From the NCBI GenBank assembly GCA_022749295.1, contig CP062007.1, positions 2,294,001-2,358,000 of the forward strand: a stretch of 64,000 bases of DNA, read 5' to 3'. Positions 17,565-40,522 of the stretch are shown here, piece after piece. Both the position numbers and the translations under genes were made by a program. Every line of letters starts with the position of its first letter. The first letter of the stretch is position 1. A model generated the notes under the pieces. The model saw only the letters and a list, made by a program, of their open reading frames with translations. It searched no databases and was not told the origin of the DNA. The DNA is from Flavobacteriaceae bacterium GSB9 (GTDB taxonomy: Bacteria; Bacteroidota; Bacteroidia; Flavobacteriales; Flavobacteriaceae).

Positions 17565-19247
17565 ATGAAACAACTTTCGGTATCATTCCTCTTTTTTACG
17601 ATGTTCAATTTTGGGTTCTGCACAAATATCAACTTGACAAAACAACAAATTGATAGCACATCATACTACTCAAATTTAGCCAATAACCCCAAAACTAGTA
17701 CAAGTTTAGTTCAATCTTATGTCTTTTTTAATAAAGCTTTCGAAAAAAATATTCGTTCAAAGGATACTATTTCGGCAATTAACAGTCTAAGACAATTATC
17801 AATAATACAATTTGGCCTTGGAGACTATTATGGTAGTGAAACGAGTGCCGTTGAAGCGTTGAAACTATTAAGTAGTATTTCAGATAAAAAAATTTTATCA
17901 CAAAGCAAAGTAGGGCTCTACAATCAACTTGGAAGAATATATAATATGTTGATGGAATACAATGAAGCCATCAAATATTACAAAAAAGCGTTAAAACACA
18001 CCACTAACCAAGGCTATATCAATATTATTAGAAATAATATAGGTTTAATTTATTTAGACCAATCAAATTACACTAGAGCTGAAAGCGAATTTTTAGAAGT
18101 TTATAAAAATAGTATCCCGCTTAAAGACAAAAAACAAACTGCTCGGGCTTTAGATAATTTAGGGCTTGCCCAGCTCAAACTAAACAAGCAAGAAGCGCTG
18201 CACAATTTACAGGATGCCTTGCAAATAAGGCTAAAAATTGACGACTCGAAAGGCCTTTATTCAAGCTATAAAAACCTATCGACCTACTTCAAGGCAAAAG
18301 ACGACAAGAACACTGCTAACCATTATGCAAAAAAAGCCTATGAGGCTGCAAAAAAACTAAATAGCCCATCGTTTGTAGAAGATGCCCTTTCAAATTGGAT
18401 AACTTTAAATCCAACCGCCATGGTGTTGGAGTACCAAAAGTTAAAGGATAGTATTGATAAAGCAAAACCTCAAAGACTTCTTGATATAAATAATGATCTA
18501 CAAGCAAAATTTATTGCTGTCACAGGCAACACTGTTGCTGATTTTAAAGAAAATGCAAAAAAACTATTCGTTAATTCAGGTTTTACAAGTTGGTTTTCAA
18601 AAGATGAAAATACAGGAGAAAAGTGGAATTATCGATTAGCCCGATTGTTAGATAAACACACTTGTACATATTGTAATAGAGAGTATATTTTTGTTTATAG
18701 AAATCCGTCTGGCAGTGGAAAAAGTATGGTCCCGCAATTTGATCATTGGTTTGCTAAGACAGATTTTCCATTACTTGGTATTTCTTTTTATAATCTAATA
18801 CCTTCATGTTCTACATGTAATACTATTAAATCATCAACTGAGTTAAATCTAAAGGATCATTTGCACCCATATCTAGATTCTAATATTTCAAGCACATATA
18901 ATTTTAGTTATTCACCTATTTCTATTTCAGAAAACAAAATAGTATTTAAGAATAGTTCCTTATTTAACACAAAGGGAATTGATACAGTTAGAGCTCTTAA
19001 TTTGCCTTTAATATATAGAGGTCATTCTAGTAAAGAGTTACAAGACTTAATTGATTTGCGATTTAAGTACTCAGATAATTATCTAAACATACTTTTAGAA
19101 AAAACCTTTGGTCATCTTGATGTCCCAAAAGAAGAAATATATAGGTTAATCTTTGGAATTGAATTAGAAGAAGATAAATATCACAAACGTGTTTTTAGTA
19201 AGTTCAAAAATGATATAATTAAAGAATTGCTTTCAATTAAAAATTAA
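17565..19247 (+). CDS. Chimeric protein: secreted TPR half fused to HNH endonuclease half
   Basis: 560-residue frame made of two unrelated halves. Residues 1-~20 are a signal peptide and ~85-300 hold several tetratricopeptide repeats, ending in a segment ([15 protein letters not shown]) like the pre-membrane part of flavobacterial TPR sensor kinases or regulators. From ~305 on the protein is an HNH nuclease: CTYC (~368-371), a DHWF histidine (~393-395) and CSTCN (~415-419), followed by a helical C-terminus. An exported TPR protein joined to a DNA nuclease makes no sense, and base composition becomes more AT-rich at the join (~18,475). I infer that insertion of accessory DNA replaced the 3' half of a native gene and left an accidental in-frame fusion. 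Whether the HNH half has its own internal start is unknown. Confidence 0.6.
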
Positions 19248-19249
19248 AT

Positions 19250-19333
19250 ATGCAAACACAAAAATATTCCGTCAATCAACACCCAATAGAAACGCTTTTA
19301 TCTTGGGTAAAATCAAGCCAAATAATAAAATAA
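19250..19333 (+). pseudogene. Fragment of a DUF262 gene start
   Basis: A 27-codon frame opening two bases after the chimeric gene's stop. It encodes [20 protein letters not shown], the same N-terminus as the DUF262 gene starting at 20229, then stops after SSQIIK. DNA identity to 20229-20290 is high but with scattered third-position changes, so it is an older, diverged copy rather than a fresh duplication. Confidence 0.6.
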
Positions 19334-19344
19334 AACCAAATCAT

Positions 19345-20214
19345 ATGAAATTAATATCTACAACTCAATTAGCTAAAATTAAAAGTATAGAAACCAAAGA
19401 TTTATTTAATCAACTAGCCAATAATGGATGGATTTATAAAAAAGACGATAAGTGGCAATTAACACAAGATGGCAGAGTAGCTGGAGGCGATACCAAATAC
19501 ACTCCTAAATACGGGGAATATGTCGTATGGCCATCAAATTTAGACTTAGACCAATCAATCAGCGCCAAAGAACTTTTGAATCCAACTAAAATTGGAGAGC
19601 ACTTTAAAATTTCTAATAGAAGAGTCAATTTGTACCTCTCCGAAATAGGTTGGATAAACAAGAATTTAGATGGTTGGAATGTAACAAAAGCTGGAGAAAA
19701 AAATGGAGGTCATCAAATGGAGTCAAAAAACGGAGTGCCCTATGCGCTTTGGGATGAAAGCATTTTGAATAATAAGCACTTGGTCAGAACAATAAAAATT
19801 GGAGAAGGTCATGAGGTTGAACAAATTTCTGAGTATTCCCAAACAGGTGATGAAGAAATGGATTTCCGCTTAAAAATTAAGGCAGAAAAAAGAACCTCTG
19901 ATGGCCATTATGTTAGAAGTAGAGCTGAACTTTTAATAGATAACTTCTTCTATAACAATGGAATCGTTCATGCCTATGAAAAAAAGCTAAATATTGATGA
20001 GGACATGTACTGTGACTTTTATTTGCCAGAAAATAAAATTTATGTAGAGTTTTGGGGTATGTCCGACCCTAAATATTTAGAACGAAAAAAGAGAAAACTC
20101 GAATTATACAGTAAGTATAATTTTATTTTAGTAGAACTGGATGATTCCGACCTTGAAAACTTAGACGAAAATTTGCAATCTAAATTAAGAAAGGTTGGTT
20201 TAGTGGTTCATTAA
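19345..20214 (+). CDS. Tandem winged-helix protein with C-terminal VSR-like nuclease domain
   Basis: 289 residues from the ATG at 19345; an upstream in-frame TTG at 19303 lies inside the DUF262 fragment and is unlikely. Two similar winged-helix modules are visible, each ending in a GWI-K-W-T-G pattern (~20-45 and ~95-120). The C-terminal ~110 residues look like a PD-(D/E)xK fold of the DUF559/VSR type: E in [11 protein letters not shown] in CDFYLPE, E in KIYVEFWG. Probably a sequence-specific nuclease of a defence island. I recall similar proteins mislabelled glycerol kinase. It sits between two DUF262 fragments. Confidence 0.6.
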
Positions 20215-20228
20215 AAAACATAAATATT

Positions 20229-20525
20229 ATGCAAACACAAAAATATTCGGTCAATCAACATCCCATAGAAACCCTATTATCTTGGGTAAAATCGGGCGAA
20301 ATAGCCATACCCGAAATACAGCGCCCTTTTGTTTGGAAATCAAGTAAGGTAAGAGATTTAATGGATTCCCTTTATAAAGGCTATCCCATAGGCTACATCA
20401 TTTCATGGCGTAACCATAATGTAAAATTAAAGGATGAGTCTATGTCAGAAGGCAAAAAGATTCTAATCGATGGGCAACAACGTATTACCGCTCTAAGAGC
20501 AGCTATTCTGGATGCGGAGGAATGA
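20229..20525 (+). pseudogene. Truncated DUF262 (GmrSD/ParB-like) protein
   Basis: Encodes the first 98 residues of a DUF262 protein: [11 protein letters not shown] near residue 27 and the family signature [12 protein letters not shown] near 80, then a stop. Intact DUF262 proteins (as in GmrSD type IV restriction and SspE-like enzymes) are several hundred residues long, so the NTPase/nickase body is missing. Either a pseudogene or a retained fragment. The following gene begins 24 bp later with unrelated sequence, marking the breakpoint. Confidence 0.65.
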
Positions 20526-20548: not shown

Positions 20549-22246
20549 ATGCCTATTAATAATCAAGCCAGTTTCAATCAAAGATTAATATCGTCTCACA
20601 TTCATGAGAGAGGAACAACTATTAATTTCGAAGTAACTATTGATTCTTCAGTCGTAAATTGGAATTTTAGAATAATCGAAGGTCTGGTTTTTAATAGACT
20701 TGTGAAAGTTAACCATGTTCACATAAACCATGGTTTAGTATTCAAAAATTGCACATTTAAATCCGGAATTGTTTTTAATGAGGTTTCAACTTCAGACTAT
20801 TCACAGACAACCAATCCTTATAACTGTTCCATTCTAATTTCTGATTGTAAGGGAGAGCATATATTCGTCGCTTACAAAAATAGATTGGAAAGGTCTTTTG
20901 TTGTAGATTCTAATTCAGAATTTGAACGAATAAAAATTGATACAGCAGTAATTGAGGGAGGTCTCAAAATCAAGGATAGTAATATTAAATCTATATTGGA
21001 TATTACAAGGGGTGATTTCGAACTTGAACTTCGTAATACCAATATAGGTGGTAATTTAAGGGTAGAAACTCTAAAAGGAGATGTTTCAATTATAAGGTGT
21101 GAGATAAAAGAATGGTGTAGATTTTGGAACGTTGAATGTCCAAATAACTTTACTTTTAATGATAATGTTTTCAATGGAACATTTAATATAGAGGCATCTA
21201 GAATTAAAGGCGTTTTCATCCACAGGGATGTATTTAATAAAAAATTAAAACTCGAAAACAGAGATTTAGTTGGTACAAACAAAGCAAATTGTGATGAAAT
21301 ATTTATTACTGAAGCAAAGTTTATTGAAGGAGCAGATTTTAATGGTTTGGGTTATCCTATTGATAAAATTACTTTAAGGTTATCACCTAGTTTTGAAGGT
21401 GTCCTTAATTTTGATAATTGGAGAGTTGATGATTTACAGGTGTCAGGCATAAATCAGAACCTCAAATTGCTGTTTAACAGAATGGTATTTAGGTTGGTTC
21501 TCTTCAATAATTTCACAAATTATGCTGACTTGAGTTTTGTAAAATGTTCTGCAACGGAAAATAGCTCGTTGAATTTCAGTAATTCCGATTTCGGTTCAGC
21601 AAGATTTAATGAATTTGATTTAGGCTCATTCGGTGTTATTAGAATTGATAATGTACAGTTAGATAGCATAAAAGCTTCAAATGTTAAATGGTTTGATAAT
21701 GATAAACTTGAAATAATATCTAATGTTTCAGAAGAAGATAAACAAAGAGGAATTCGTGAAATTTCTAAACAATTAAAATCCGCTTTATCCAAATCAGGCA
21801 ATGAAATTGACAGTCTTTTATTTAAGGCAAGGGAGATGCAAGCCTACCGAAACGAACTTAAAGAATATGGAGAAAATTATAAATGGACTGACAAGGTCAT
21901 AATGACGGTTAGCCGTACTAATAATTACGGGTTGAGTTGGTGGAAACCACTTTGGATTATTTCTTTAATTACACTTGGTTTTTATGTTATAATGCTTCCC
22001 ATATTTTCAGACCAAATAAATTATACAATGGCTAAAAGTATGGATGATATTTCACTAACATTGTCTGAGGTATGGAATAATTTTAATGTATTCTGGCAAA
22101 TGTTTAATCCAGCGAGAAAATTTTCTTCCACGTATGGAGAAATTGATAGTAGTTGGTTGCAGTTTTTAGACCTTTTCCACCGTGTTATACTGGGTATATT
22201 TATTTATCAAATTATTAAAGGTTTTAGAAGATTAAGTTCAAAATAA
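20549..22246 (+). CDS. Beta-helix (pentapeptide-like) protein with two C-terminal membrane helices
   Basis: 565 residues. Residues ~20-390 are a long series of short beta strands with F/L/I at regular spacing (FNxxxF, xxLxFxN), typical of degenerate pentapeptide or right-handed beta-helix repeats. A charged helical segment (KAREMQAYRNELKE, ~430) follows, then two membrane helices near 470-493 and 535-557. I recall a widespread but uncharacterised bacterial group with this layout. It could be a membrane effector of the island; no enzyme motif is visible. Confidence 0.6.
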   Translation: MPINNQASFNQRLISSHIHERGTTINFEVTIDSSVVNWNFRIIEGLVFNRLVKVNHVHINHGLVFKNCTFKSGIVFNEVSTSDYSQTTNPYNCSILISDCKGEHIFVAYKNRLERSFVVDSNSEFERIKIDTAVIEGGLKIKDSNIKSILDITRGDFELELRNTNIGGNLRVETLKGDVSIIRCEIKEWCRFWNVECPNNFTFNDNVFNGTFNIEASRIKGVFIHRDVFNKKLKLENRDLVGTNKANCDEIFITEAKFIEGADFNGLGYPIDKITLRLSPSFEGVLNFDNWRVDDLQVSGINQNLKLLFNRMVFRLVLFNNFTNYADLSFVKCSATENSSLNFSNSDFGSARFNEFDLGSFGVIRIDNVQLDSIKASNVKWFDNDKLEIISNVSEEDKQRGIREISKQLKSALSKSGNEIDSLLFKAREMQAYRNELKEYGENYKWTDKVIMTVSRTNNYGLSWWKPLWIISLITLGFYVIMLPIFSDQINYTMAKSMDDISLTLSEVWNNFNVFWQMFNPARKFSSTYGEIDSSWLQFLDLFHRVILGIFIYQIIKGFRRLSSK

Positions 22247-22303: not shown

Positions 22304-22525
22304 ATGGCAGTACTCGGTAAAATTATTAAAGAAAAAATTGATAGAATTAGTATCAGACAAGGAGATGTAGTTGCAGATGTAATTATAGAAAAACACTGGA
22401 TGCAGTTAAGAACCTATGCCTTCGGAGACCTTGATAGAAGCCGGGGTGCCAAACAAAACATTCAATTTGATAGAGATAAGGCCATAGAACTAAGAAATTT
22501 GTTAGACGAATTTATAAATCAATAA
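22304..22525 (+). CDS. Small protein, possibly PC4-like ssDNA-binding
   Basis: 73 residues starting MAVLGKIIKEKIDRISIRQG. The pattern is four strands and a C-terminal helix (WMQLRTYAFGD, then GAKQNIQFDRDKAIELRNLLDEFI), resembling the PC4-type single-strand DNA-binding fold. That is a fold guess from the strand/helix order. It is first in a run with the 529- and 845-residue genes (39-bp gap, then zero gap). Confidence 0.55.
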   Translation: MAVLGKIIKEKIDRISIRQGDVVADVIIEKHWMQLRTYAFGDLDRSRGAKQNIQFDRDKAIELRNLLDEFINQ

Positions 22526-22564
22526 TTCCAAATATTTAATAGCAGACTTTTATTTTAGATAATT

Positions 22565-24154
22565 ATGTATAGCATCGCTTCCTATAAAATCCCTTTCTGG
22601 GCAGAAAATAGCGGTTTCATGACAGGCCGTGATGCCTTGGGAATACAAAATAGTTCCATTACTACTTATGGAAGATTACTCCCGGGGTTAACCAACTTAA
22701 CGCAACGATTGAGATACTATGGTTTCTATATGTGGATTATTCGAGAATTTTATAAAGCCAATGAAGGTAGAACAGATTTCACCCATAGAGAACATTATAA
22801 CTTTATTCGAAGAGGAGAGCTAATTATAGCTTTTATAATGCGAAATAAGGCTCCTGAGGTAAAAAGTGTAATAGGAAGCAAATTTACAGGAGAAAATGAA
22901 TCCGAAATAGTTGAAAAGGGGTATTATGACATTCACTTAGGCGCCGATAAGCTAAAAGACACAAAAAAAGGGTCTGTTTATTGGGATTTTAGGTCCGGTG
23001 CGCTGGGTCAGTATTATGCAGGGGCTTTGTCCACACTCAATCTAATCAATACTGAAGGCCAATTTTTTCATTTGGAAAAGAAAGGAAAATTACTCGCAGA
23101 TGATTATGCCAATTCAATAGATAAATTACAGCAAAAAAGGTTTTTAGATGTAATAGAAAGTGGAAGGCTGTATTTAAACGACATAGATAATCTTGAAGAT
23201 TTTAGAATAGACAAAATAGTTCCTGAAACAAAAGAATGGAATTATTACTTACATATTCTGTTAAAAGACGATGGTGAAGGAATAGAAGACATAAAAGGCA
23301 ATAAGTCTTATATGCGAAGAGAAAGTATAAAATTATTGCTGAATTATTTCAATTCAGAAATTGATGAATATGATGAGCGGAGTTTTATTCTTTATCAATT
23401 TATATCTCATAAGAAAATTGATAAGGTAGATGCGTCATTTGGATGGTATTATTATTATTTAAATGAAGCTTTCCATATAGCGTTAGAATCAATTTTCTGG
23501 TCAATTTTAGTACAACTTGATGGTCGTCCAAGGGAGATTGAAAGTTTTATAGACGAAATTACAATGAAAACAATTGATTTGTGCCATCAAGAACTTGGAA
23601 TTAACAAGGATGAAAAATTAAAAGAAATCATTGAAAAAATTCCTTTTAGTAATTCCACTCAAATTAGCAGCCACTTACAGGAATTACTTGAATTATCTAA
23701 AAACTCAAGCCATGCGCCAAAATCAATGTTCAAGGCTTTTGTATTTATTTTAGCAATTTATAAATCTATCCCTTCTGAAGAGAAGGAAAGCATACTAGAA
23801 TTCGAAAAGCAATACAGCATTCTTGGCCAAAAAGGAAGAATTTCTGAAAATCTAAAGATTTTTGTTGAGGTTTGTCTTTCAAATGAATTTAATGAATTCA
23901 TTAAGAAGAGTATTCAACAAATTATAAATGGCCATATAAATACAGCCTATCGCAAAATGGGTAATGGCGAGAGCAATCTGTTAAAATTTATTATTGAGGA
24001 TGGAATCATCTCACATATCCAAACCATGAAACCTCAACACACGTCACCAAGATTGAATTCAATTACCAATTTTTTACATGATTTATCTCTTGTAAATCAA
24101 GAAAATAAATTAACATCACTCGGAAAAAAACAACTAAAAATTCTTTCGAATTAA
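22565..24154 (+). CDS. Unknown 529-residue protein, middle gene of candidate defence operon
   Basis: Soluble, mostly helical, no signal peptide. The N-terminus (YKIPFWAENSGFMTGRDALG) and LTQRLRYYGFYMWI near residue 45 look conserved, but no known catalytic motif can be seen. The stop codon is immediately followed by the ATG of the phospholipase D-like gene, so the two products are probably made together and may form a complex. I do not recognise the family. Confidence 0.6.
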   Translation: MYSIASYKIPFWAENSGFMTGRDALGIQNSSITTYGRLLPGLTNLTQRLRYYGFYMWIIREFYKANEGRTDFTHREHYNFIRRGELIIAFIMRNKAPEVKSVIGSKFTGENESEIVEKGYYDIHLGADKLKDTKKGSVYWDFRSGALGQYYAGALSTLNLINTEGQFFHLEKKGKLLADDYANSIDKLQQKRFLDVIESGRLYLNDIDNLEDFRIDKIVPETKEWNYYLHILLKDDGEGIEDIKGNKSYMRRESIKLLLNYFNSEIDEYDERSFILYQFISHKKIDKVDASFGWYYYYLNEAFHIALESIFWSILVQLDGRPREIESFIDEITMKTIDLCHQELGINKDEKLKEIIEKIPFSNSTQISSHLQELLELSKNSSHAPKSMFKAFVFILAIYKSIPSEEKESILEFEKQYSILGQKGRISENLKIFVEVCLSNEFNEFIKKSIQQIINGHINTAYRKMGNGESNLLKFIIEDGIISHIQTMKPQHTSPRLNSITNFLHDLSLVNQENKLTSLGKKQLKILSN

Positions 24155-26692
24155 ATGGTTGAGCTAAAGCTATATCATGAAATTCCAGGGGGTCGAAATA
24201 AATTTCATTCTGCAATCTTAACGACCTACTCATTCAATTTCCATCATTTTGAATATCAAGTATTAAAAACCCTAAAACATAAATCAATATATAACATTGG
24301 TGTCTTAGTAGACTCTACAATGCTCGATAATGTTTTGGGGGCATCTTCTGCTGGATTAAAACAACTAACAGAAACGTATTCTATTAATGGCGTTTATGCC
24401 AGAGGTGCATTTCATCCCAAAATTAATTTCTTTATTGGCGATAATCATTTAATGATGGTTTTTGGTTCCGGAAACATTACGGCTGGCGGACATGGAAAAA
24501 ACCATGAAACGTTTTCTGCTCTATTTGCAGATTCATCAGAGAGTCCTCTTTTGCCAATTTTAAATGAAGGCTGGGAATATCTCATCAAGCTCGCAGATAA
24601 TTTGGAGGGTTACTCGGGTTTGCGAATTAAAAAGGTAATCCCCAGAAACTGCACCTTAATTAAACCTTTTCAATCTGAAAAGCACAAATTTCATAAGGTT
24701 GATGAAGACACAGAATTGGCGTTACTTTATAACGAAGATTCTTCAATATTAAATCAATTACTTGCATTAATACCAGCCAATGAAATAGATAATATTACCA
24801 TAGTGTCTCCTTATTATGATGAAGACGGGACATTCCTTAAATCGATACTTGAGGAATATTCAAAAAGCAGAGTAGATGTGTATTTACCAAAAGAAAATGG
24901 GTTACCTCCTACTAAAATGACTGAGGATAAAAGAATAAAATTTTATCAATGGGAAAATACAAATAGGGGGGAAAAAACCATCAATGCATCTGAGGGGTAT
25001 ATTAGAAAATTGCATAGCAAGCTTTTCTTCTTTAAAGGGAAAAATTATAATTACTGTTTGGTTGGCAGTGCAAATGCAACAAAGGCAGCCTTTGGCACAA
25101 GGGATATAAGAGGCATAAATGAAGAGTTTGGCATGCTATATAAATCCTCAAAAACTAATTATTTAAATAATCTTGGGATAACAGGAAAAAAAGAAGTTCT
25201 AGACCCGAGTACTTTAACAAGAGACAAATATTTAGTCAATACCGCTCCAATAACTGAAAAATATCAAAAATCCGTTAAAATTGAAAGCTGCGATTTAGAT
25301 GGATTAACTTTAAAATGCTTTTTTACTTTTTCCAGTAATATTGATAATCTCTACATATGCTTTTATAATGATATAGGAGAAGAGCTTTCAAAATTCAATC
25401 AAATAATAACTTTAACAGAAAAATTACAAATAAGAGTAGCAAAAGACTTTCTGTTATATAGTCCTGCCTATGTTTTGTTAAAGGACCAAAACGAAAGGAT
25501 TATCTCCAACAAACAAGTAATAAATAACATTGCAAAGCTTTTCAATACTGACCCATCTAAAGAAAATAGAGCAATTAGAAGTATGAGAAGTGCCTTGGAA
25601 ATGGGGAAATTAAATGAATATAGCCTATTGGGATATTTAAATGAATTAAGCGCAGGAAACAATTACCATAAAGATAAAACTAATACATATTCTGTTTCTC
25701 AAGAAGAAAAATTAGAAGCCCATAGTGAAATGACTTTTGAGGAAGCCATGATGGCTTCAAAACACAAGGATAAAAATCAACAACTATCTACAAAACATTA
25801 TACCGTTCAGTTTTGGCAAACTATTTCAATGTTTTATAAAGAAAAACTGGAAATAGAACAAGAAGAGTTGAACGATGAGGAAGAAGAGGCTGATGCCACC
25901 GAAAGTAATGAAAGGAAAGTTGCTGATGATAAAGAAAAAGATATTTCCATTAGTCAAAAAGCAGAATTAAAAAGAATCCCCGAATCTACAGAAACACAAG
26001 CTAATTACTTTATCAAGTCACTAAACATTATTTCCCGAGATAGTGAAATTGAAATAAATGAGGTATTACTATGTCAATTTCTCTTAATATCACAAATCAT
26101 CACAGCGGTTCATATATTCAAGTCTTATGATTTGCCATATGATGAAAAAAGAAAAATGTACAAGTTTTACACTCCTGAAGAGTGGAAGAAAATTTTACAG
26201 GACAAGTATCATGGCTTAATGCAAGACATATTGGTAACCTTTGCTAAAACAATTATAAATTTATCCATAACTACACCAGAGGATGACCATAGAGCCCGAA
26301 ATTTAAATTCATACAAACAAGAAGTTCTTACTTTTATTTTTTTATATCATTATTTCATTAATAGAAATGTGGAAAGTCCACATTCAGAAATTTCAGATTT
26401 AGCTTGTTTAAACATACTTTACAAATTGGGGCTTCCCGATAATGATGGTTTTAAAGAGTATATCGAAAATTCCTTTAAACCCATAGCAGAAAAAAAATAT
26501 GATGCTTATGCTGTATCTAAATTGAAATCAAGAATTGAAAATTTAATGAATGAAGTTAATGACAAAACAAAATACTTTTACCATAAGCATTATGGAGTAT
26601 GCCATATAATAAGAAAAGACTCTAAGAAAGTATTTTTTAAATCAATAATGGACGAGTACGGAATCTTCAATCTAAACTTAAAAGATTTATAA
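24155..26692 (+). CDS. Phospholipase D-like nuclease, large
   Basis: 845 residues with two PLD-type half-sites: FHPKINFFIGD followed by VFGSGNITAGG (~85-112) and LHSKLFFFKG followed by VGSANATKAAFG (~285-310). Each gives the HxK plus downstream GSxN arrangement of the PLD superfamily. A very acidic linker (~565-605) leads to a helical C-terminal ~240 residues. No helicase or NTPase motif is visible, unlike DISARM DrmC-type or helicase-PLD systems that I know. PLD-fold proteins in defence loci are generally nucleases. Third gene of the operon starting at 22304. Confidence 0.65.
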   Translation: MVELKLYHEIPGGRNKFHSAILTTYSFNFHHFEYQVLKTLKHKSIYNIGVLVDSTMLDNVLGASSAGLKQLTETYSINGVYARGAFHPKINFFIGDNHLMMVFGSGNITAGGHGKNHETFSALFADSSESPLLPILNEGWEYLIKLADNLEGYSGLRIKKVIPRNCTLIKPFQSEKHKFHKVDEDTELALLYNEDSSILNQLLALIPANEIDNITIVSPYYDEDGTFLKSILEEYSKSRVDVYLPKENGLPPTKMTEDKRIKFYQWENTNRGEKTINASEGYIRKLHSKLFFFKGKNYNYCLVGSANATKAAFGTRDIRGINEEFGMLYKSSKTNYLNNLGITGKKEVLDPSTLTRDKYLVNTAPITEKYQKSVKIESCDLDGLTLKCFFTFSSNIDNLYICFYNDIGEELSKFNQIITLTEKLQIRVAKDFLLYSPAYVLLKDQNERIISNKQVINNIAKLFNTDPSKENRAIRSMRSALEMGKLNEYSLLGYLNELSAGNNYHKDKTNTYSVSQEEKLEAHSEMTFEEAMMASKHKDKNQQLSTKHYTVQFWQTISMFYKEKLEIEQEELNDEEEEADATESNERKVADDKEKDISISQKAELKRIPESTETQANYFIKSLNIISRDSEIEINEVLLCQFLLISQIITAVHIFKSYDLPYDEKRKMYKFYTPEEWKKILQDKYHGLMQDILVTFAKTIINLSITTPEDDHRARNLNSYKQEVLTFIFLYHYFINRNVESPHSEISDLACLNILYKLGLPDNDGFKEYIENSFKPIAEKKYDAYAVSKLKSRIENLMNEVNDKTKYFYHKHYGVCHIIRKDSKKVFFKSIMDEYGIFNLNLKDL

Positions 26693-26950: not shown

Positions 26951-27004
26951 GTGGTCCCACCTGGGCTCGAACCAGGGACTTTCTGATTATGAGTCAGATA
27001 CTCT
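26951..27004 (-). repeat. attL: displaced 3' part of the tRNA gene
   Basis: 54 bp identical to 41942-41995, covering the tRNA 3' end, T arm, variable region and the whole anticodon arm; identity ends in the region leading to the D arm. The 5' part is missing, so this copy is not a functional tRNA. Confidence 0.9.
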
Positions 27005-27056
27005 TAGCTTTATATGGCTTGTTATTATTGACTTTATCCAATATTGCTTTTTAACG

Positions 27057-27075
27057 TGCAAGTTATATGCAAGTT
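27057..27075 (+). repeat. Left copy of terminal 19-bp repeat (recombinase arm-site candidate)
   Basis: TGCAAGTTATATGCAAGTT, itself two GCAAGTT units 11 bp apart, occurs here and again at 41777-41795 in the same orientation. One helical turn between units and a position just inside each att core fit integrase or excisionase binding sites. Confidence 0.65.
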
Positions 27076-27130
27076 TTAGCAGTTATTAAAGAACTTATTG
27101 TCTCAAATATAGCAATAATAAAATTTATTC

Positions 27131-27463
27131 TTATACTAAATCATCTTGATATAAAATCAATCCAATAACAACTTCGCCATCAACTTCTGTTTCATCAATT
27201 CTAACATCGTTTGACATCACATTGAAATCATTTTTATAGAACTCTGTGTCTAGCTGGTAATCATCCATTTTTATTTGAAACTGAACATATGGACAACAAT
27301 CATCCCAATTAAAGTATCCCTTAACAACAACTTCTGTTCTTTGGTTTACTGGATACTCATTATCATATATCTTATTGTTAATTTCATCAATGAAATTAAC
27401 TTTATTACCGTTAAATGCATCTACTATCATTCGTTGCAGTTTTTCTTTTTTTAAATCAATCAT
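27131..27463 (-). CDS. Hypothetical protein near the element's left end
   Basis: 110 residues, acidic, with alternating strands (EVVVKGYFNWDDCCPYVQFQ) and a C-terminus EVVIGLILYQDDLV. No known motif. It lies 30 bp downstream of the replication gene on the same strand, so probably in its transcript and involved in element biology. Not recognised. Confidence 0.6.
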   Translation of the reverse strand: MIDLKKEKLQRMIVDAFNGNKVNFIDEINNKIYDNEYPVNQRTEVVVKGYFNWDDCCPYVQFQIKMDDYQLDTEFYKNDFNVMSNDVRIDETEVDGEVVIGLILYQDDLV

Positions 27464-27493
27464 TTTTTTTATTAATTAAAGTATGAAGGTCAA

Positions 27494-29479
27494 TTATAAT
27501 TGACCTTCATTATTATTATGTTTATTAACCCATCGCTCTACTGTTGATTTTGGAACACCAGTTGTGGACTCAATGGCTCTATAAGACGCACCATTCTCAT
27601 GGAGTTCTATTACCATATCCAATTTTTGGTTACGCCTTTCTTTTGGTGATGAGAAATCCAAGTGCTCGGATTCATGTGTACAATCTAAATAATCGAACCC
27701 AAGGAATTTATTTCGCTTATTAAGTGTGAGTCCAATAACATTTTCAATATCGAATATGATTTCAGCCGACCTCGATGGTTTAACCTGTTTTAGGTATCTA
27801 ACATCTTTTTCTTGAGAGCTTTTACCTAAGCATGAAACGCTATCGGCAAAATTAGATAAATGCTTGCTGCCACCAAGTTCGTTTAGTGTCAGAAATGTCC
27901 CGTTCTTAACTTTAGGTGTATGTGCTAAAACAAGTATCGATATTCCAAACTCTTTTTTCATTGAATCCAACTCTTTCATTAAATCTAAAGCCACTGAAGT
28001 TTCCTGTGCAGCTTGAGTAGTTAAAAATGTTATATTATCAATAATCACGACATTCGCTCTAGTCTCCTTGATGTCCTGTCTTATTTTCCTAAACATACAT
28101 TTGTCAAGACTCTCATTCGGGTAGTCAATCATTAATTGCTTAAAATCGATATCACTTAAAATAAAATCCTCATGAAAATCGTACATATTATTTGTGTCAT
28201 CTGAATAACGTTTCAAAAACTGTCTGTCTGATAGTTCAAAATCGTAGACTAGAACTTTCTGTGGTCCAACACCATTAGTAAGAATATTCAGAACATTAAT
28301 TCCCCTAGATAGACTATTTGCTATTTGTATAGCTAACACACTTTTACCAGAACCAGTGTCTCCAAATAGAATGTGTAATTCTCCCATTTGCCATACCACT
28401 CCAATCAATGGTTTAATTTCAGGCATTTTCTGCGCATCTTGCATGCGTTGAGAAGCTGTTCTAATTGTATTCCCTATGCTTTCCACCATTTTTATTGACT
28501 CCATTTGTGAAACCATATGGAAAATTGTACCAATACCCAATCTACCATCATAGGATTCCAGTAAGGCATCATATTTAGAGTTTGTACTATTTGTGTCGTA
28601 CTTAGTGCTCACTTCGCTAAACAAATGAAATAATTCCCGTCCCTGTTCTCCTAATTGGCAAAATGAATGTCCCACTCTAACCCAATCATGATAATCATCA
28701 GATATGCAAACACCTTTAGATTTTAAACCATTTCCAATTTTATAAAGCTTTTCAATTGTATTGATATCAAGCTCATTATCGTATACTACTCCTTGATTGG
28801 AAGCCCAATGATTTATAAAGTTGGCGTCTAATCCCTTTTCATTTAAAAAAATATCGTTATAAATAGCATCGGGGTCATAAGACAAAAAGCATGCACGAGA
28901 AACATCTTTACAGGCTTTATCAATTTCTAAATCATATTCCAGCTTAAAATAGGATTCCAATGCTTCAAAATAGTTAAAGTGGGTGCTCTGGTCAACATCT
29001 ATCTTAAGAAATACTTTTAAACCAAATCCACATGGTGAAGTAAATATCAAAATAGGCTTTATTTGGATGTCAGCAGCAAGCCTTCTTTTAAGTCCGACAA
29101 AATCGTTTGACTGAACGTCATCTATATCTATACAGATTATACCGCTATGACGAATAAGCCCATTAGCCTTTCTGATTTTAAATTTCCCAGATGGCGTTAC
29201 AGATGGAAGTACATTTGCCTTCTCCTTTTTATATACGGCACTACCTTTTTGGAAAAGCATCTCCCTGAGCCTAAATATTTTATTATTTAAGTCTTCGCTG
29301 GTGCTAATAAATTTATATAATTCTGGAAGTGTTGTTTCCCCAATTGGGGTTATTGAAGTAATAGGTTCTTTATAAATACTAAACTCACCATTTGGCAGAA
29401 CCTGTTCTTTAGTATTGTTTTCATAGTCAAAACAATTTGAATGAAAACTAGCGTTTGTCTTTAATTCATCATACTGCAT
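27494..29479 (-). CDS. Element replication protein: VirE N-terminal / PriCT / RepA-like ATPase
   Basis: 661 residues. The N-terminal ~60-180 resembles the BT4734/VirE N-terminal domain found in Bacteroidota mobile elements (GIICIDIDDVQ, SRACFLSYDPDAIY). A primase-C-terminal-like helical stretch lies at ~240-300 (HDWVRVGHSFCQLG). A RecA/RepA-type ATPase follows with Walker A GDTGSGKS (~371-378) and Walker B VVIIDN (~475). The last ~40 residues form a helix-turn-helix (GASYRAIESTTGVPKSTVERW). Likely primase-helicase for replication of the excised circle. It follows a possible small gene that overlaps its start. Confidence 0.82.
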   Translation of the reverse strand: MQYDELKTNASFHSNCFDYENNTKEQVLPNGEFSIYKEPITSITPIGETTLPELYKFISTSEDLNNKIFRLREMLFQKGSAVYKKEKANVLPSVTPSGKFKIRKANGLIRHSGIICIDIDDVQSNDFVGLKRRLAADIQIKPILIFTSPCGFGLKVFLKIDVDQSTHFNYFEALESYFKLEYDLEIDKACKDVSRACFLSYDPDAIYNDIFLNEKGLDANFINHWASNQGVVYDNELDINTIEKLYKIGNGLKSKGVCISDDYHDWVRVGHSFCQLGEQGRELFHLFSEVSTKYDTNSTNSKYDALLESYDGRLGIGTIFHMVSQMESIKMVESIGNTIRTASQRMQDAQKMPEIKPLIGVVWQMGELHILFGDTGSGKSVLAIQIANSLSRGINVLNILTNGVGPQKVLVYDFELSDRQFLKRYSDDTNNMYDFHEDFILSDIDFKQLMIDYPNESLDKCMFRKIRQDIKETRANVVIIDNITFLTTQAAQETSVALDLMKELDSMKKEFGISILVLAHTPKVKNGTFLTLNELGGSKHLSNFADSVSCLGKSSQEKDVRYLKQVKPSRSAEIIFDIENVIGLTLNKRNKFLGFDYLDCTHESEHLDFSSPKERRNQKLDMVIELHENGASYRAIESTTGVPKSTVERWVNKHNNNEGQL

Positions 29480-29630
29480 AATAATTAAGAGGTTTTACAA
29501 ATACCACCGCAACTATTGCGACTACGTTATTTAAGAAACTATTGAATGCTGCCAATAATTCTTTGTGAATTTTCACATTACTTTTTACCCTCAGTGACAA
29601 AGCACCTGAGCTTGTTATTGTTTTTTTCAT
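29469..29630 (-). CDS. Possible 53-residue leader protein of the replication gene
   Basis: Starts at ATG 29630 and encodes MKKTITSSGALSLRVKSNVK, then a helix and a hydrophobic segment (VVAIVAVVFV). Its stop overlaps the replication gene's ATG by 11 bp, a coupling-like arrangement, and an upstream promoter-like sequence (29715-29745) reads into it. No family recognised, so this could also be a chance frame. Confidence 0.35.
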   Translation of the reverse strand: MKKTITSSGALSLRVKSNVKIHKELLAAFNSFLNNVVAIVAVVFVKPLNYYAV

Positions 29631-29714
29631 AATAAATTGAAAATTGCCTACGGAAATGTTTTAATATAGGACTTTTTGTTATTCTTGGGCAAATGTAATT
29701 CGCCATAATTAGTG

Positions 29715-29745
29715 CAAATATACTACATAAAAATCCAAAAAACAA
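29715..29745 (-). promoter_or_regulatory. Promoter for the minus-strand replication genes
   Basis: On the minus strand a TTG (29743-29745) is followed after 20 bp by TATATTTG (29715-29722), a full Bacteroidota -33/-7 pair, 85 bp before the ATG at 29630. Confidence 0.55.
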
Positions 29746-29800
29746 GTAAAATTGAATATTTTGTGTTAAAATATTTGGTTTTTACATTTTAATTCACTAT

Positions 29801-29833
29801 ATGTCCCGTTTTTACCATCCCAAAACGGGACAT
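29801..29833. repeat. Palindrome TGTCCCGTTTT, left of the RM operon
   Basis: Perfect 12-bp arms (ATGTCCCGTTTT / AAAACGGGACAT) around a 9-nt loop with no following T-run, so more like a protein-binding dyad than a terminator. A near-identical dyad lies at 39371-39401. Confidence 0.6.
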
Positions 29834-30087
29834 TTACGGTCTTTAATTCTTCTATATTGCATAACTGTAGCACGTATTCGCTATGCCTCTTTTTCAAAAA
29901 AGCCCTTAAAGACCCTGAAAAAACTGCATACCTATCGGACCCCTCCCCCTCCTGTTGATAAAAAATATTTCTCGCTGCCGTATCCTCTCTTATGTATTAA
30001 GGTGGTTCCTTTAAAAACCTAACAACGGACCTGTCACCAAAAATTTTTCAGAATTTTTTTCACATCAATAAGATATAAAATAATAAT
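29834..30087. other. Gene-free region upstream of the RM operon
   Basis: About 250 bp between the left palindrome and the RM operator repeats. A 73-codon frame crosses 29801-30022, but it starts inside the palindrome and has unconvincing composition. An origin or transfer site of the element could lie here; I see no specific signal. Confidence 0.3.
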
Positions 30088-30170
30088 TTGAAAACTTGTA
30101 CAATATTTTTTTTACTTTGAAAGCTTGTACAATAAAATTATTATTCGTATATTTGAAACCTCATACAATA
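30088..30170 (+). repeat. Three operator-like direct repeats over the RM promoter
   Basis: TTGAAAACTTGTACAATA (30088-30105), TTGAAAGCTTGTACAATA (30117-30134) and the weaker TTGAAACCTCATACAATA (30153-30170). Starts are 29 and 36 bp apart. The second covers the -33 box and the third the end of the -7 box, so a protein bound here would block transcription. Confidence 0.65.
30125..30155 (+). promoter_or_regulatory. Promoter of the type I RM operon
   Basis: TTG (30125-30127), 20-bp spacer, TATATTTG (30148-30155): a full Bacteroidota promoter. A transcript would start close to 30162, ruling out upstream start codons and supporting the ATG at 30182. Confidence 0.65.
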
Positions 30171-30181
30171 GTATTTTTAAA

Positions 30182-30751
30182 ATGATAAAGAGAATATATG
30201 AAATAGCAGACATTCAATTTGGCTTGTATAAGAAGGCTAAATCTAAAGGTAAGCAGAAGTATTTATTAAGTAGTCATTTTGATGATAATTTTCAGCCATC
30301 AGATTTTGATGATAGCTATGTTGATATAGCAGATGATATGAGTAAGTTTCTTTTAGGGCCTAACGATGTGATTCTAGCTGGAAAAGGGAACAGAATTTTT
30401 GCTTGGGCTTATGACCCCTCTTTTGGCCCAACTGTCCCGTCTTCTTTGTTTTTTATAATTAGGACAAATCCAAAAGAGATACTGGGACAATATCTTGCGG
30501 AGTATTTAAACTCTGATAGTGTTCAATACAGACTAATGAATATTGGTGCTGGTGCAAGTATTACCTCTATACCCAAAAAAGAGCTGGAACAGATAGAAGT
30601 TGTTATCCCTTCAATTAAGCAACAAAATGATATTTCAAAACTTACGGACTTAATGCAAAAAGAGTTAGAGTTGTCTGAGAAATTAATTGAACTTAAGGCA
30701 ACACTAAAGAGGGGGCTCATTAACAGAATGATTAACAATACAAAGAAATAA
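30182..30751 (+). CDS. Half-size type I restriction specificity (HsdS-like) protein
   Basis: 189 residues from the ATG at 30182. It has one target-recognition domain (~5-130, including SKFLLGPNDVILAGKGNR and SSLFFIIRTNP) and one conserved helix (~140-185, IPSIKQQNDISKLTDLM ending LKRGLINRM). This corresponds to half of a full HsdS. Half-size subunits can act as dimers. A full hsdS lies 2 kb downstream in the same operon, so this may offer a second specificity or be a relic. It lies 8 bp before hsdM. Confidence 0.75.
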   Translation: MIKRIYEIADIQFGLYKKAKSKGKQKYLLSSHFDDNFQPSDFDDSYVDIADDMSKFLLGPNDVILAGKGNRIFAWAYDPSFGPTVPSSLFFIIRTNPKEILGQYLAEYLNSDSVQYRLMNIGAGASITSIPKKELEQIEVVIPSIKQQNDISKLTDLMQKELELSEKLIELKATLKRGLINRMINNTKK

Positions 30752-30759
30752 ATATAGAT

Positions 30760-32247
30760 ATGGAAAGTAAATTAACACAGCAAGTAATAAATCAAAAGGT
30801 TTGGAAGGCTTGTGATTCATTTAGAGGTACAATCAGCGCAAGCGACTATAAAGACTACATTCTTACTATGCTCTTTATTAAATACATCACCGATGTGCAA
30901 AAAGAAAAAAGAGCGGAATACACTAAAAAATATAATGGTGACTTAGTAAGGGTGGAAAGAGCTATGAGTTTAGAGCGCTTCAAGATTCCTGAAAATAGCA
31001 GCTTCGATTTTCTATACAACAGCAGAAATGAATCCAATCTTGGAGAGCTAATTAATATCTCCCTTGAAAAAATTGAAGATGCCAATCGTTCTAAGCTCGA
31101 AGGTGTATTCAGAAATATAGACTATAATTCTGAAGGTAATCTTGGTCAAACTAAAGACAGGAATAGAATACTTAAAAACCTATTAACTGATTTCTCTGAT
31201 TTAGACTTAAGACCATCAAATCTTTCTGGGAATGATGTAATTGGTGATGCCTACGAATATCTCATCGCTAATTTTGCAGCTGGTGCTGGTAAAAAAGCTG
31301 GTGAGTTTTATACACCAGCAGAAGTATCAACATTGCTGGCCAAATTGGTAGAACCTAAAGCAGCCGATAAGGTCTGTGACCCCACTTGTGGTTCAGGTTC
31401 CTTATTATTAAAAGTGGCTGATGAAATAGGAAGTAAAAATGTCTCATTAAATGGTCAAGAAATTAATGGAAGTACGTGGGCACTGGCTAGGATGAACATG
31501 TTTCTTCACGAAATGGACAATGCCAGAATAGAATGGGGAGACACTATAAATAGCCCAAAACTTACCGAGAACGATGCGCTAATGAAATTTGATATTGTGG
31601 TTGCTAATCCGCCTTTTTCTCTCGATAAATGGGGAGCGGAAGATGCTAGTGCTGACAGGTATAATAGGTTTCATAGAGGCACGCCACCAAAAAGTAAAGG
31701 TGATTATGCCTTTATCACACATATGATAGAGACCTTAAACGAACATGGTAGAGCTGGTGTGGTACTGCCGCATGGTGTTCTATTTAGAGGTAGCTCTGAA
31801 GGAAAAATACGTAAGCAAATTATTGATGAGAATCTTTTGAAGGCCGTTATAGGGTTACCGCCTAATCTGTTTTTTGGCACAGGTATACCAGCAACGATTT
31901 TAGTGTTTGATAAGAACAAAGGTGATAACACAGAGGTATTGTTTATTGATGCGAGCAACGATTTTGAAAATGGCAAAAACCAGAATAAATTAAGTGATGA
32001 CAATATTAAAGATATTATACGCACTTATAAAAAATGGGAGACTGTTGATAAATACAGCTATGTTGCAACGTTAGAAGAAATAAAAGATAATGATTATAAT
32101 TTAAACATCCCTCGTTATGTTGACACCTTTGAAGAGGAAGAGCCTGTTGACATTAAAGCCACTCAAGAAGAGATTAAGGCTATAAAGCAGCAGATTGAAG
32201 AAGTCGAGCACAAACTTGAACAACATTTAGCAGAGTTAGGATTATGA
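30760..32247 (+). CDS. hsdM: Type I restriction-modification methyltransferase subunit
   Basis: 495-residue adenine methyltransferase subunit. An N-terminal helical HsdM domain (~5-150) precedes the SAM-binding motif DPTCGSGS (~207) and catalytic motif NPPF (~283). The C-terminal ~40 residues form a coiled coil for contact with HsdS. It modifies adenine at the site chosen by HsdS and forms the core of the M2S1R2 complex. The last four bases overlap the next gene (ATGA). Confidence 0.95.
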   Translation: MESKLTQQVINQKVWKACDSFRGTISASDYKDYILTMLFIKYITDVQKEKRAEYTKKYNGDLVRVERAMSLERFKIPENSSFDFLYNSRNESNLGELINISLEKIEDANRSKLEGVFRNIDYNSEGNLGQTKDRNRILKNLLTDFSDLDLRPSNLSGNDVIGDAYEYLIANFAAGAGKKAGEFYTPAEVSTLLAKLVEPKAADKVCDPTCGSGSLLLKVADEIGSKNVSLNGQEINGSTWALARMNMFLHEMDNARIEWGDTINSPKLTENDALMKFDIVVANPPFSLDKWGAEDASADRYNRFHRGTPPKSKGDYAFITHMIETLNEHGRAGVVLPHGVLFRGSSEGKIRKQIIDENLLKAVIGLPPNLFFGTGIPATILVFDKNKGDNTEVLFIDASNDFENGKNQNKLSDDNIKDIIRTYKKWETVDKYSYVATLEEIKDNDYNLNIPRYVDTFEEEEPVDIKATQEEIKAIKQQIEEVEHKLEQHLAELGL

Positions 32248-32648
32248 AAACATTAAAAGAGTATTTTTTAAATAAGGACGAGCAAATTAAGAGACTAGTA
32301 CAGTCTATGGCTGGATATAAAAATTTAAACGTTGAATTTCTGGGGTACTATATCGACAACAACAATTTAACTGGAACTTTCACATCAAGGCCGCTATATA
32401 AATCTTATAAGGATTATAAGTCTCAAAACCCGTATGAAGAGATAAATCATATTCGATATTTCTTTGAGTTGAATAACGATAACAAAAAACACAGCTTAAC
32501 GGTTACTTTAAACAATGCTGGAGTTTTTGATGTTGGCTTCTCTATTGATGCATTAGCACAGGGTTTTGAAGACAACTCCCCAGAATTAGATTTTAAAGAG
32601 TCTGATTTCAGTCAGTTAATGGCTATAATAAAATTAAAATTTGATTAA
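32244..32648 (+). CDS. Unknown 134-residue protein between hsdM and hsdS
   Basis: Acidic-to-neutral protein with an N-terminal helix, a beta-rich middle (NVEFLGYYIDNNNLTGTF, SLTVTLNNAGVFDVGF) and a helical end. The 4-bp overlap with hsdM and 2-bp gap to hsdS indicate co-translation. No motif recognised; an accessory or cargo gene of this RM operon. Confidence 0.65.
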   Translation: MKTLKEYFLNKDEQIKRLVQSMAGYKNLNVEFLGYYIDNNNLTGTFTSRPLYKSYKDYKSQNPYEEINHIRYFFELNNDNKKHSLTVTLNNAGVFDVGFSIDALAQGFEDNSPELDFKESDFSQLMAIIKLKFD

Positions 32649-32650
32649 CA

Positions 32651-33904
32651 ATGAACGAACTGTCAAGAACATTTGAAGAGGGAGTTGAGGTAAAAGAGGG
32701 CTTTAAGATGACGAAAATTGGATTCATTCCCAATGATTGGGAGGTTTTCAATTTAGGTGATTTGGGTGAACTGTTAAATGGTTTAACCTATAGTCCGAAA
32801 GACATTAATGAAAATGGAACATTGGTGCTCCGCTCTTCAAATGTGCAAAATCGTCAATTAGAATTCGAGGACAATGTATACGTTGATGTTGAAGAAGGAA
32901 AATATAATCCTGTAAAAGAAAATGATATTTTAATTTGTGTACGTAATGGAAGTCGTTCTTTAATTGGAAAAAACGCATTAATCAATAAAGAAAGCGAAGG
33001 TTATGCGTTTGGAGCATTCATGGCCGTTTATAGAAGTCCATTAAATAAATTTTTATTTCAACTATTTGACACTGATATATATAATAGGGAAGTTCATAGA
33101 AACCTAGGCGCAACTATCAATTCAATAAATGGAAAGGATTTTAAACGCTTTCTAATGCCAATGCCACCCGAAAAGGAAAGAGCTAAAATAGCCTTTATCT
33201 TATCTGATTGGGACGAAGCCATTGAAAATACACAAACTCTTGTTGAAAAATTAGAGCTTCGTAAAAAAGGATTAATGCAACAGTTGTTAACTGGAAAAAC
33301 TCGTTTAGCTGGGTTTACTGACAAATGGAGAAAAGTTAGCATAGGTGAAATTGCAACACAGTTTACAGATAAGAATAAAAAAGATGAAAACATTGAGGTG
33401 CTTTCATGCACTAAATATGATGGTTTAGTAAGGTCATTAGATTATTTCGGAAGAAAAGTTTTTGGTGATGATTTGTCTAAATACAAAATAGTACCAAGAG
33501 ACTATTTTGCTTATGCTACCAATCACATTGAAGAAGGTTCTATTGGTTATCAAGATTTGATGGAAAGAGGTTTAGTAAGCCCAATGTATACCGTTTTCAA
33601 AACTGATAATACTATTAATGATTCATTTATGTACAGACTACTTAAAACCGATAGAATGATATATAACTATCAAAGCAATATGTCTGGCTCTATTGCAAGA
33701 AGGGGTGGTTTAAGGTGGAATGTTTTTGAAACCATAGATGTGAGTATTCCGCCTTTACAAGAACAAAATGCAATTGCTGTTTTTTTTGATAAAATTGATG
33801 AAGAAATAATGCAGACTGAAAACTATTTAATGCAGCTACAGGAACAGAAAAAAGGCTTGATGCAGCAGTTGTTAACTGGACAAATTCGAGTAAAACTTAA
33901 TTAA
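32651..33904 (+). CDS. hsdS: Type I restriction-modification specificity subunit
   Basis: 417 residues with the two-domain HsdS plan: TRD1 ~20-150, spacer helix ~165-215 ending KKGLMQQLLTG, TRD2 ~225-375, second helix ending KKGLMQQLLTG (~399-409). TRDs choose a bipartite DNA site and the two conserved helices set the spacing. The repeated helix-end coding sequences (near 33268 and 33850) are close to identical at DNA level and could serve domain shuffling. Confidence 0.93.
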   Translation: MNELSRTFEEGVEVKEGFKMTKIGFIPNDWEVFNLGDLGELLNGLTYSPKDINENGTLVLRSSNVQNRQLEFEDNVYVDVEEGKYNPVKENDILICVRNGSRSLIGKNALINKESEGYAFGAFMAVYRSPLNKFLFQLFDTDIYNREVHRNLGATINSINGKDFKRFLMPMPPEKERAKIAFILSDWDEAIENTQTLVEKLELRKKGLMQQLLTGKTRLAGFTDKWRKVSIGEIATQFTDKNKKDENIEVLSCTKYDGLVRSLDYFGRKVFGDDLSKYKIVPRDYFAYATNHIEEGSIGYQDLMERGLVSPMYTVFKTDNTINDSFMYRLLKTDRMIYNYQSNMSGSIARRGGLRWNVFETIDVSIPPLQEQNAIAVFFDKIDEEIMQTENYLMQLQEQKKGLMQQLLTGQIRVKLN

Positions 33905-33910
33905 AATATT

Positions 33911-34918
33911 ATGGCAGCGAAAAACTTAACAACATCAAACGTTGACAGGCAGAACATTTTAAACAATAGGTTTGCCATAAGTCGTATTCAAGAATACATA
34001 GGTATTCCTGGGATGGAGTTTAAAGGCGAATACCGTTTTACTAAAAAAATGGTGGCTGATTTTTATAATGTAGACACTTCAACGATTGATAGGTATTTAT
34101 CAAATCATGAGGAGGAATTAAAACATAATGGATACATTTTAATACGGGGTAAGGCCTTGAAAGAGTTCAAATTAGCGTTTGGTCACCTTATGAATGAGGC
34201 GACCAAAACTACTATTTTAGGATTATTCAATTTTAGGTCGTTTATCAATTTAGGGATGTTGCTTTCTGAAAGTGAAAACGCTAAACTATTAAGGTCTAAA
34301 GTTTTAGACATAGTAATTGAGGTTATAAATGAAAAAACAGGAAGCGGAACCAAGTTCATAAACAGAAATGATGCTGATTATTTACCAACTGCAATAAGGG
34401 AAAGTAAATACCGAAAAGAGTTTACCTCTGCTTTAAGTAGATATGTTGACATGGGTAATTATAAATACGCATTGTATACCGACAAAATCTATCAATCCAT
34501 ATTTATTGAAAATGCAAAAGAGTATAAACAAATACTAAAATTAGAAGCAAAGGATAGTGCAAGAGATACAATGTATGCTGAAATCTTGAATCTAATAGCT
34601 TCATTTGAAACAGGTATTGCACATGATATTGAGAGAAAGTATTCGCTTTTAGGACGAAAACTAACTTCATCCGAAGTGGATGAGGTTTTTAAAAATTTCT
34701 CTGAACATCCATCACAAAGACCACATATTGAAGATGCTCGAATAAAAATGGCTTCCAGAGATTTACATTTTAGGGATGCTTTTCATCAAAAATTAGAAAA
34801 ATATGTCCAATCTATTTCACCAGCTGATTTCGAAAGGTTTTTGGGAGAACAAAGTGTGAACTTTGACAAACAATTAGAGGAGGCAAAGGATGTTTTTAAA
34901 CGTTTAAAAGATAGCTAA
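33911..34918 (+). CDS. DNA-binding protein, putative antitoxin partner of Doc
   Basis: 335 residues. A helix-turn-helix is seen near residues 45-70 (FTKKMVADFYNVDTSTIDRYL), and a long helical region follows. I recall this family beside death-on-curing toxins in Bacteroidota RM loci. It is much larger than the classical Phd antitoxin. The stop shares a base with the Doc start (TAATG). A possible regulator of the operator repeats at 30088-30170. Confidence 0.6.
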   Translation: MAAKNLTTSNVDRQNILNNRFAISRIQEYIGIPGMEFKGEYRFTKKMVADFYNVDTSTIDRYLSNHEEELKHNGYILIRGKALKEFKLAFGHLMNEATKTTILGLFNFRSFINLGMLLSESENAKLLRSKVLDIVIEVINEKTGSGTKFINRNDADYLPTAIRESKYRKEFTSALSRYVDMGNYKYALYTDKIYQSIFIENAKEYKQILKLEAKDSARDTMYAEILNLIASFETGIAHDIERKYSLLGRKLTSSEVDEVFKNFSEHPSQRPHIEDARIKMASRDLHFRDAFHQKLEKYVQSISPADFERFLGEQSVNFDKQLEEAKDVFKRLKDS

Positions 34919-35370: not shown

Positions 35371-35407
35371 AAGAAAAATTTAGCTAAAGAGCCAATAAAA
35401 TAACAAA

Positions 35408-39366: not shown

Positions 39367-39370
39367 ATGC

Positions 39371-39401
39371 TGTCCCATTTTATTGATTATAAAATGGGAC
39401 A
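39371..39401. repeat. Palindrome TGTCCCATTTT, right of the RM operon
   Basis: 11-bp arms (TGTCCCATTTT / AAAATGGGACA) around a 9-nt loop. Same arm pattern and loop length as 29801-29833, with one base changed symmetrically in both arms. No T-run follows on either strand. Confidence 0.6.
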
Positions 39402-39415
39402 TAAAAACTTTAATT

Positions 39416-39574: not shown

Positions 39575-39622
39575 GCTTTTTCAACTGAATGACTTCAATT
39601 ATTCTTATTCAAATATTTATAA

Positions 39623-40500: not shown

Positions 40501-40522
40501 ATGCCTTTATATATAAATATCA

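Follow-up and report, generated by a model that had tools for sequence, protein, structure and literature searches.

A candidate two-gene defense module, distantly related to ZacA and ZacB and without ZacC, in a Flavobacteriaceae bacterium

Relation of the A-B pair to Azaca and other described systems

The closest described relative of the genes reported here is Azaca, the original paper on which (Millman et al. 2022) is cited in PMC10952713. In the passages of the literature that we found, Azaca has a phospholipase D (PLD)-like domain (PMC10952713) and ZacC is listed among the superfamily 1 and superfamily 2 (SF1/SF2) helicases (PMC12278908), and those passages give no mechanism for the system. 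We analyzed a 64,000-nucleotide stretch of the genome of Flavobacteriaceae bacterium GSB9 (contig CP062007.1, positions 2,294,001 to 2,358,000; here called the window), in which an open reading frame (ORF) for a 73-residue protein is followed after 39 bp by gene A and, with no gap, by gene B, all on the same strand (Table 1). An earlier sequence-only reading of the window had given the same coordinates and spacings and had taken the three genes for a self-contained defense operon of a small PC4-like protein, a protein of unfamiliar type, and a large PLD nuclease. We find that the conserved unit is the A-B pair and that its nearest named relatives are ZacA and ZacB.

Profile searches of PADLOC matched each protein to a single family, A to ZacA at an E value of 0.0033, over residues 37 to 107 only, and B to ZacB at 6.7e-12, over residues 206 to 332. 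When profiles were aligned with hhalign, A matched the N-terminal part of ZacA over about 82 columns (E value of 1.7e-5, probability of 78%) and B matched ZacB over 40 columns only (E value of 1e-6). Relatives of the pair behaved likewise: ZacA was the sole PADLOC match at an E value of ≤0.1 for 10 of 11 A proteins (best, 9.1e-6), and ZacB was matched by 10 of 10 B relatives (best, 5.7e-18), with weaker matches to PDC-M27B and to a DrmC model in seven of the 10 each (best, 3.6e-8 and 1.4e-7, respectively). NCBIfam gave nothing over its cut-offs for A, B, or the 73-residue ORF product. Thus, a ZacA-like gene precedes a PLD gene in the same order as in Azaca, an N-terminal stretch is common to A and ZacA, and both PLD half-sites are present, whereas similarity to ZacA does not extend over most of A and the operon contains no ZacC.

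The lack of ZacC was general, as no homolog was detected in the 34 A-B loci at an E value of ≤0.01, other than one generic match to SNF2 in a plasmid locus (L008; 5.2e-10). A full Azaca system with an overlooked ZacC was rejected, as neither the window nor the other A-B loci held a ZacC-like gene. By comparison, seven ZacA loci, from two Bacteroidota genomes and from five plasmids fetched out of 43 plasmid records with ZacA, all carried a large helicase gene two steps downstream of zacA, and six of the seven carried a single PLD gene in between. The exception, L071, had two unnamed ORFs in place of the PLD gene and was therefore left out of the set of six ZacB proteins. On three rhizobial plasmids (L069, L071, and L072), zacA was itself preceded by a gene pair for a PD-(D/E)XK nuclease and a UvrD helicase, with multiubiquitin, ThiF, and DUF6527 genes further upstream on L071 and L072. 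Annotation assigns the ZacA proteins of the five plasmids to DUF6361, and the two genomic ones match that family, but DUF6361 was not detected in the A protein of the window at an E value of ≤1. Moreover, a tree of the PLD proteins separated the 34 B proteins from the six ZacB proteins on a long branch (2.4; support of 0.70), and residue 118 was E in 34 of 34 B proteins and D in six of six ZacB proteins. We conclude from these four differences that A-B is, by sequence, a distant relative of the zacA-zacB half of Azaca that falls outside Azaca as defined.

That relationship bears on whether the locus is undescribed, as had been proposed. Kinship to ZacA and ZacB, though distant, ties both proteins to a named system, and to that extent the proposal does not hold. 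What remains of it is the helicase-free arrangement, of which no description was found in the literature searched, where supplements and most subscription journals were beyond reach and an earlier table could list it.

Other described systems resemble A-B in single respects. A PLD active site made of two half-sites is shared with BfiI and CglI. In the sections of the reports available to us, BfiI needs neither metal nor ATP and cuts one strand at a time with one active site and a covalent histidine intermediate (PMC4081073), and CglI consists of a PLD subunit and a helicase-like ATPase (PMC5737866). BfiI differs in being a single protein that dimerizes to form one site and that has a B3-like DNA-binding domain, whereas B carries both halves in one chain and has an unrelated partner. 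Two genes acting together from within a type I restriction operon would recall TgvAB, which the excerpt seen presents as a two-gene type IV system located in a type I operon and protecting independently of HsdR (PMC11411939); TgvAB is GmrSD-related, whereas neither A nor B of the window matched GmrSD at an E value of ≤1. A PLD domain in a defense setting is likewise found in DISARM DrmC and in Mokosh. In a test of DISARM that was confined to DrmC, with DrmA and DrmB not sought separately, B scored 13.1 bits against an NCBIfam cut-off of 133 and had no PADLOC DrmC match at an E value of ≤1. Mokosh type II combines helicase and PLD domains in a single protein, whereas B had no helicase domain at an E value of ≤1 and no PADLOC Mokosh match. 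Identity with DISARM or Mokosh was rejected on these scores and domains, and the sequence-only reading had been right both to set the large protein apart from the two systems and to find no helicase motif in it.

Linkage of A and B and properties of the two proteins

To collect A-B loci, A was used as a query against the genome contigs, 99 genomes, and plasmids and then as a profile against 395 Bacteroidota genomes and IMG/VR, and B was used as a query against plasmids and IMG/VR. Plasmid records matched by A (15) and by B (26) yielded 17 distinct records that were examined; judged by title and position, several of the rest are probably duplicates or near relatives of these, and others match only in part. 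A and B were adjacent in 34 loci, the window included, which correspond to about 32 independent ones, as L004 and L030 are nearly identical and so are L031 and L043. Wherever a locus was reached through A, B adjoined it (17 of 17), and of the 18 fetched loci to which only B had led, 17 had A next to B. A truncated B without A in L039, which lacks B residues 1 to 191 and is otherwise 96% identical to the B protein of L029, was not counted among the 34 and is the one case in the loci seen in which the two genes occur apart. In 32 of the 34 loci, A came first and either overlapped B by 1 to 41 bp or ended directly before it (gap of 0); the order was reversed in L064, and A was split into two ORFs in L014. 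The hosts were Bacteroidota, Alpha- and Betaproteobacteria, Actinomycetota, and one haloarchaeon. Within an even sample of Bacteroidota, A was carried by six of 395 genomes, this one included, and no match to A or B was found in the phage collection.

The two proteins also shared a history. Trees of A and of the PLD region of B had 21 of 31 splits in common, compared with a mean of 0.2 and a maximum of 2 when labels were shuffled, and pairwise distances of A and B were correlated (Spearman coefficient of 0.78), to a degree reached by none of 2,000 permutations. The pairing, with adjacency in 34 loci, is far beyond chance, and co-inheritance alone is no proof that the two proteins touch. We conclude that A and B move as a cassette whose two genes are tightly linked and co-inherited.

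The 73-residue ORF was not part of that cassette. No homolog of it was found in the 33 other A-B loci, in 59 relatives, in 295 other Bacteroidota genomes (which overlap in part with the 59), in plasmids, or in IMG/VR, and its product had no Pfam, PADLOC, or NCBIfam match at an E value of ≤1 and no PDB match at an E value of ≤10. Its description as PC4-like failed by profile, as PF02229 matched nothing in the genome at an E value of ≤10, whereas matches were obtained in 10 of 14 control genomes, one of them over the cut-off. A three-gene system with a PC4 protein was therefore rejected: the operon has three genes in the window and two elsewhere, and we treat the small ORF as a local passenger.

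B is by sequence a complete PLD enzyme. PLDc_2 was the only Pfam family matched at an E value of ≤1, at 1.8e-9 and over its cut-off. The two HxK...GSxN half-sites that had been read from the sequence were present as H87/K89/S105/N107 and H287/K289/S305/N307; residues H87, K89, N107, E118, H287, K289, S305, and E324 were the same in all 34 B proteins, and S105 and N307 were each conserved in 33 of them. The spacings from K to N (18) and from N to E (11) in the first half-site of B equal those of BfiI (H105, K107, N125, and E136). Structure comparisons with Foldseek and VIA-align agreed with sequence in placing B in the PLD superfamily. An AlphaFold2 (AF2) model of B had an overall predicted local distance difference test score (pLDDT) of 64.8 and a predicted template modeling score (pTM) of 0.50, with most of residues 1 to 345 confident, and among solved structures residues 1 to 360 were best matched by Tdp1 in VIA-align (Z of 23.4, root mean square deviation [rmsd] of 3.9, 324 residues aligned).

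A was modeled with greater confidence and is mostly helical (pLDDT of 81.5, pTM of 0.80), with its invariant residues in the N- and C-terminal parts. It had one Pfam match, which was at chance level (E value of ≤1), and no solved structure clearly matched it by sequence or fold, Foldseek giving none at an E value of ≤0.001. VIA-align returned MntR (Z of 6.6, rmsd of 3.9, 97 aligned, residues 49 to 222), MukF and JetA (Z of 4.5 and 4.4, about 90 aligned), and transporter bundles (Z of about 5), all of which were set aside because such Z values lie within the range that unrelated helical models reach. The missing structural match is no proof of a new fold. A is likely a sensor or regulator.

Table 1. 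Positions of the genes and sites of the A-B locus within the window
Feature	Position	Strand	Description and basis
73-residue ORF upstream of A	22304..22525	+	Treated as a local passenger outside the conserved pair; not PC4 by profile
Gene A	22565..24154	+	529 residues, mostly helical; ZacA-like N-terminal part; likely sensor/regulator (ORF, PADLOC, hhalign, AF2)
Conserved N-terminal stretch of A, residues 19-57, common to ZacA	22619..22735	+	
Gene B	24155..26692	+	845 residues, two-half-site PLD enzyme, likely nuclease; ZacB-like (ORF, PLDc_2, PADLOC ZacB)
PLD region of B, residues 1-345	24155..25189	+	AF2 model; Tdp1 match
B half-site 1: H87, K89, S105, N107, E118	24413..24508	+	
B half-site 2: H287, K289, S305, N307, E324	25013..25126	+	

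Genomic setting of the pair

The pair lies in a defense-rich and mobile setting, consistent with the mosaic beside an integrated element that had been noticed from the sequence. The final 54 bases of a tRNA-Met gene (41942 to 42016) are repeated at 26951 to 27004, and the gene and the copy bound an element (26951 to 42016) that carries genes for an integrase and a primase-like protein together with a type I restriction set and that is lacking from both congeners at this tRNA gene. A-B is just outside the element, in a left-hand segment that also contains genes of the PDC-M62B and PDC-S69 types and a fragment of GmrSD_N. Synteny extended to window position 17516 in congener G002 and to 18459 in congener G001, resuming in both at the tRNA gene, and A was absent from both congeners searched. 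We conclude from the synteny breaks and the absence of A that A-B sits in a tRNA-Met insertion hotspot.

The same hotspot holds other genes of interest. At 17565 to 20214, a TPR protein matches the PADLOC candidate PDC-M62B (4.7e-45) and a KilAC-domain protein matches PDC-S69 (3.2e-102), and at 20229 to 20525 a 98-residue ORF matches only the start of GmrSD_N (9e-23) and is apparently a truncated GmrSD-type gene. Just before the 73-residue ORF, at 20549 to 22246, there is a gene for a 565-residue protein that weakly resembles pentapeptide repeats, probably has membrane segments, and is absent from both congeners.

Across the A-B loci, no neighbor family was constant, the commonest Pfam family accounting for five of 85 neighbor proteins, and no housekeeping context was met in the loci seen. 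Type I restriction genes occurred in the flanks of eight of 28 other loci and in none of 18 control regions (P = 0.012), with the Hsd proteins of the window as seeds and 20-kb regions from seven host genomes as controls. The count had been repeated because the first seeds were partly taken from positive loci; that first count was nine of 29 loci versus none of 18 (P = 0.007), or five of 25 (P = 0.055) when those loci (the window, L001, L004, and L005) were left out. The pair lies between hsdS and hsdR in Myroides and begins 9 bp after an hsdS-like gene in L001, and other neighbors include Zorya, a type III Res-like gene, and a HipA-like gene.

Such positions could indicate that A-B is an accessory to restriction, which processes DNA cut or unwound by a neighboring motor (HsdR, ZorD, or an SNF2 or DEAD helicase), with a borrowed helicase in the place of ZacC. 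Consistent with an accessory role, a DEAD-helicase gene begins 52 bp after B in L040, and SNF2 and Zorya genes are found just upstream of the pair in L008 and L010, respectively. However, at least 22 of 29 loci had no helicase-type gene within two genes as examined, with not every neighbor scanned singly, and none is adjacent in the window. Moreover, TgvAB acts without HsdR from inside a type I operon, in the portion of the report seen (PMC11411939). We consider the accessory role unlikely. In L008, a Sphingobium plasmid, the SNF2 helicase gene and a gene for a 587-residue protein of no known family stand directly upstream of A-B (3979 to 8852); these may form a system of their own or serve as a borrowed motor.

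Proposed function and competing explanations

We propose, with a probability of roughly 0.55, that A-B is a Zac-related two-gene defense module that lacks ZacC, in which A is a sensor or regulator and B is a DNA cutter. Of the operon first suggested, a defense locus that encodes a large PLD nuclease and lacks its own helicase, the proposal keeps the second and third genes and drops the small PC4-like one. Linkage, co-inheritance, intact catalytic residues, restriction-gene neighborhoods, and mobility together argue that A-B likely serves in defense, and B probably cleaves DNA. A and B would act together, with A sensing invading DNA or an infection signal and then licensing B, and B would cut through one active site built from two half-sites by the metal-independent, covalent phospho-histidine chemistry known for PLD nucleases. 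Because no ATPase, motor, or methyltransferase is a constant partner, discrimination is probably built into A-B; the pair might recognize a feature absent from host DNA, which would be type IV-like and complementary to type I restriction, or it might be activated only during infection. Restriction that is both autonomous and ATP-free is a tentative suggestion, lowered in our estimate by the helicase genes found nearby. A broader version is doubtful, namely, that A-B is a widespread autonomous and ATP-independent restriction system in which A recognizes a mark or structure of foreign DNA and then licenses a PLD nuclease that has a single active site, that it is either the branch of Azaca that lacks the helicase or the ancestor of that system, and that it moves in and out of type I operons as a type IV-like complement.

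Several observations weigh against a DNA-cutting defense module. The PLD fold is common to lipid enzymes, such as phospholipase D and phosphatidylserine synthase, which leaves DNA the presumed substrate of B; PLD3, phospholipase D, and others tie with Tdp1 within about 1 Z, so that fold alone cannot separate a nuclease from a lipid enzyme. The C-terminal half of B was poorly modeled, with confidence too low for a fold search. None of the five loci added last (L063 to L067) had type I restriction genes in its 5-kb flanks, and the controls for the restriction count, drawn from seven host genomes only, included none that match plasmid or viral loci. Finally, a helicase-type gene was found within two genes of the pair in at least seven of 29 loci (L004, L005, L008, L010, L030, L040, and L042), which weakens a motor-free reading; the helicases differ in kind.

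Tight translational coupling, with the genes overlapping or abutting in 32 of the 34 loci, could also reflect an abortive-infection or toxin-antitoxin-like arrangement, in which A would hold B in check until infection releases B to break down nucleic acid or membrane of the host and so kill the cell. AbiEii-type genes nearby on two plasmids and the lack of a constant self-protecting methyltransferase would fit such an arrangement, but typical antitoxins are smaller and less well conserved than A, and we regard this explanation as quite improbable. Plasmid or element maintenance, by stabilization or by exclusion of competing plasmids instead of antiphage defense, is very improbable, since the pair, although plasmid-borne in many loci and in some near partition or transfer genes, is also chromosomal beside restriction and HipA-like genes and has no conserved maintenance partner.

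Relatives of A-B occur in several phyla and an archaeon, whereas PADLOC (2023), Pfam, and NCBIfam, in the copies searched, do not recognize the pair of the window as a system of its own; pipelines built on such models would therefore miss it. A natural two-gene version without a helicase could reveal whether Azaca has a sensor-nuclease core made of its ZacA-like and ZacB-like parts, with the helicase as an add-on.

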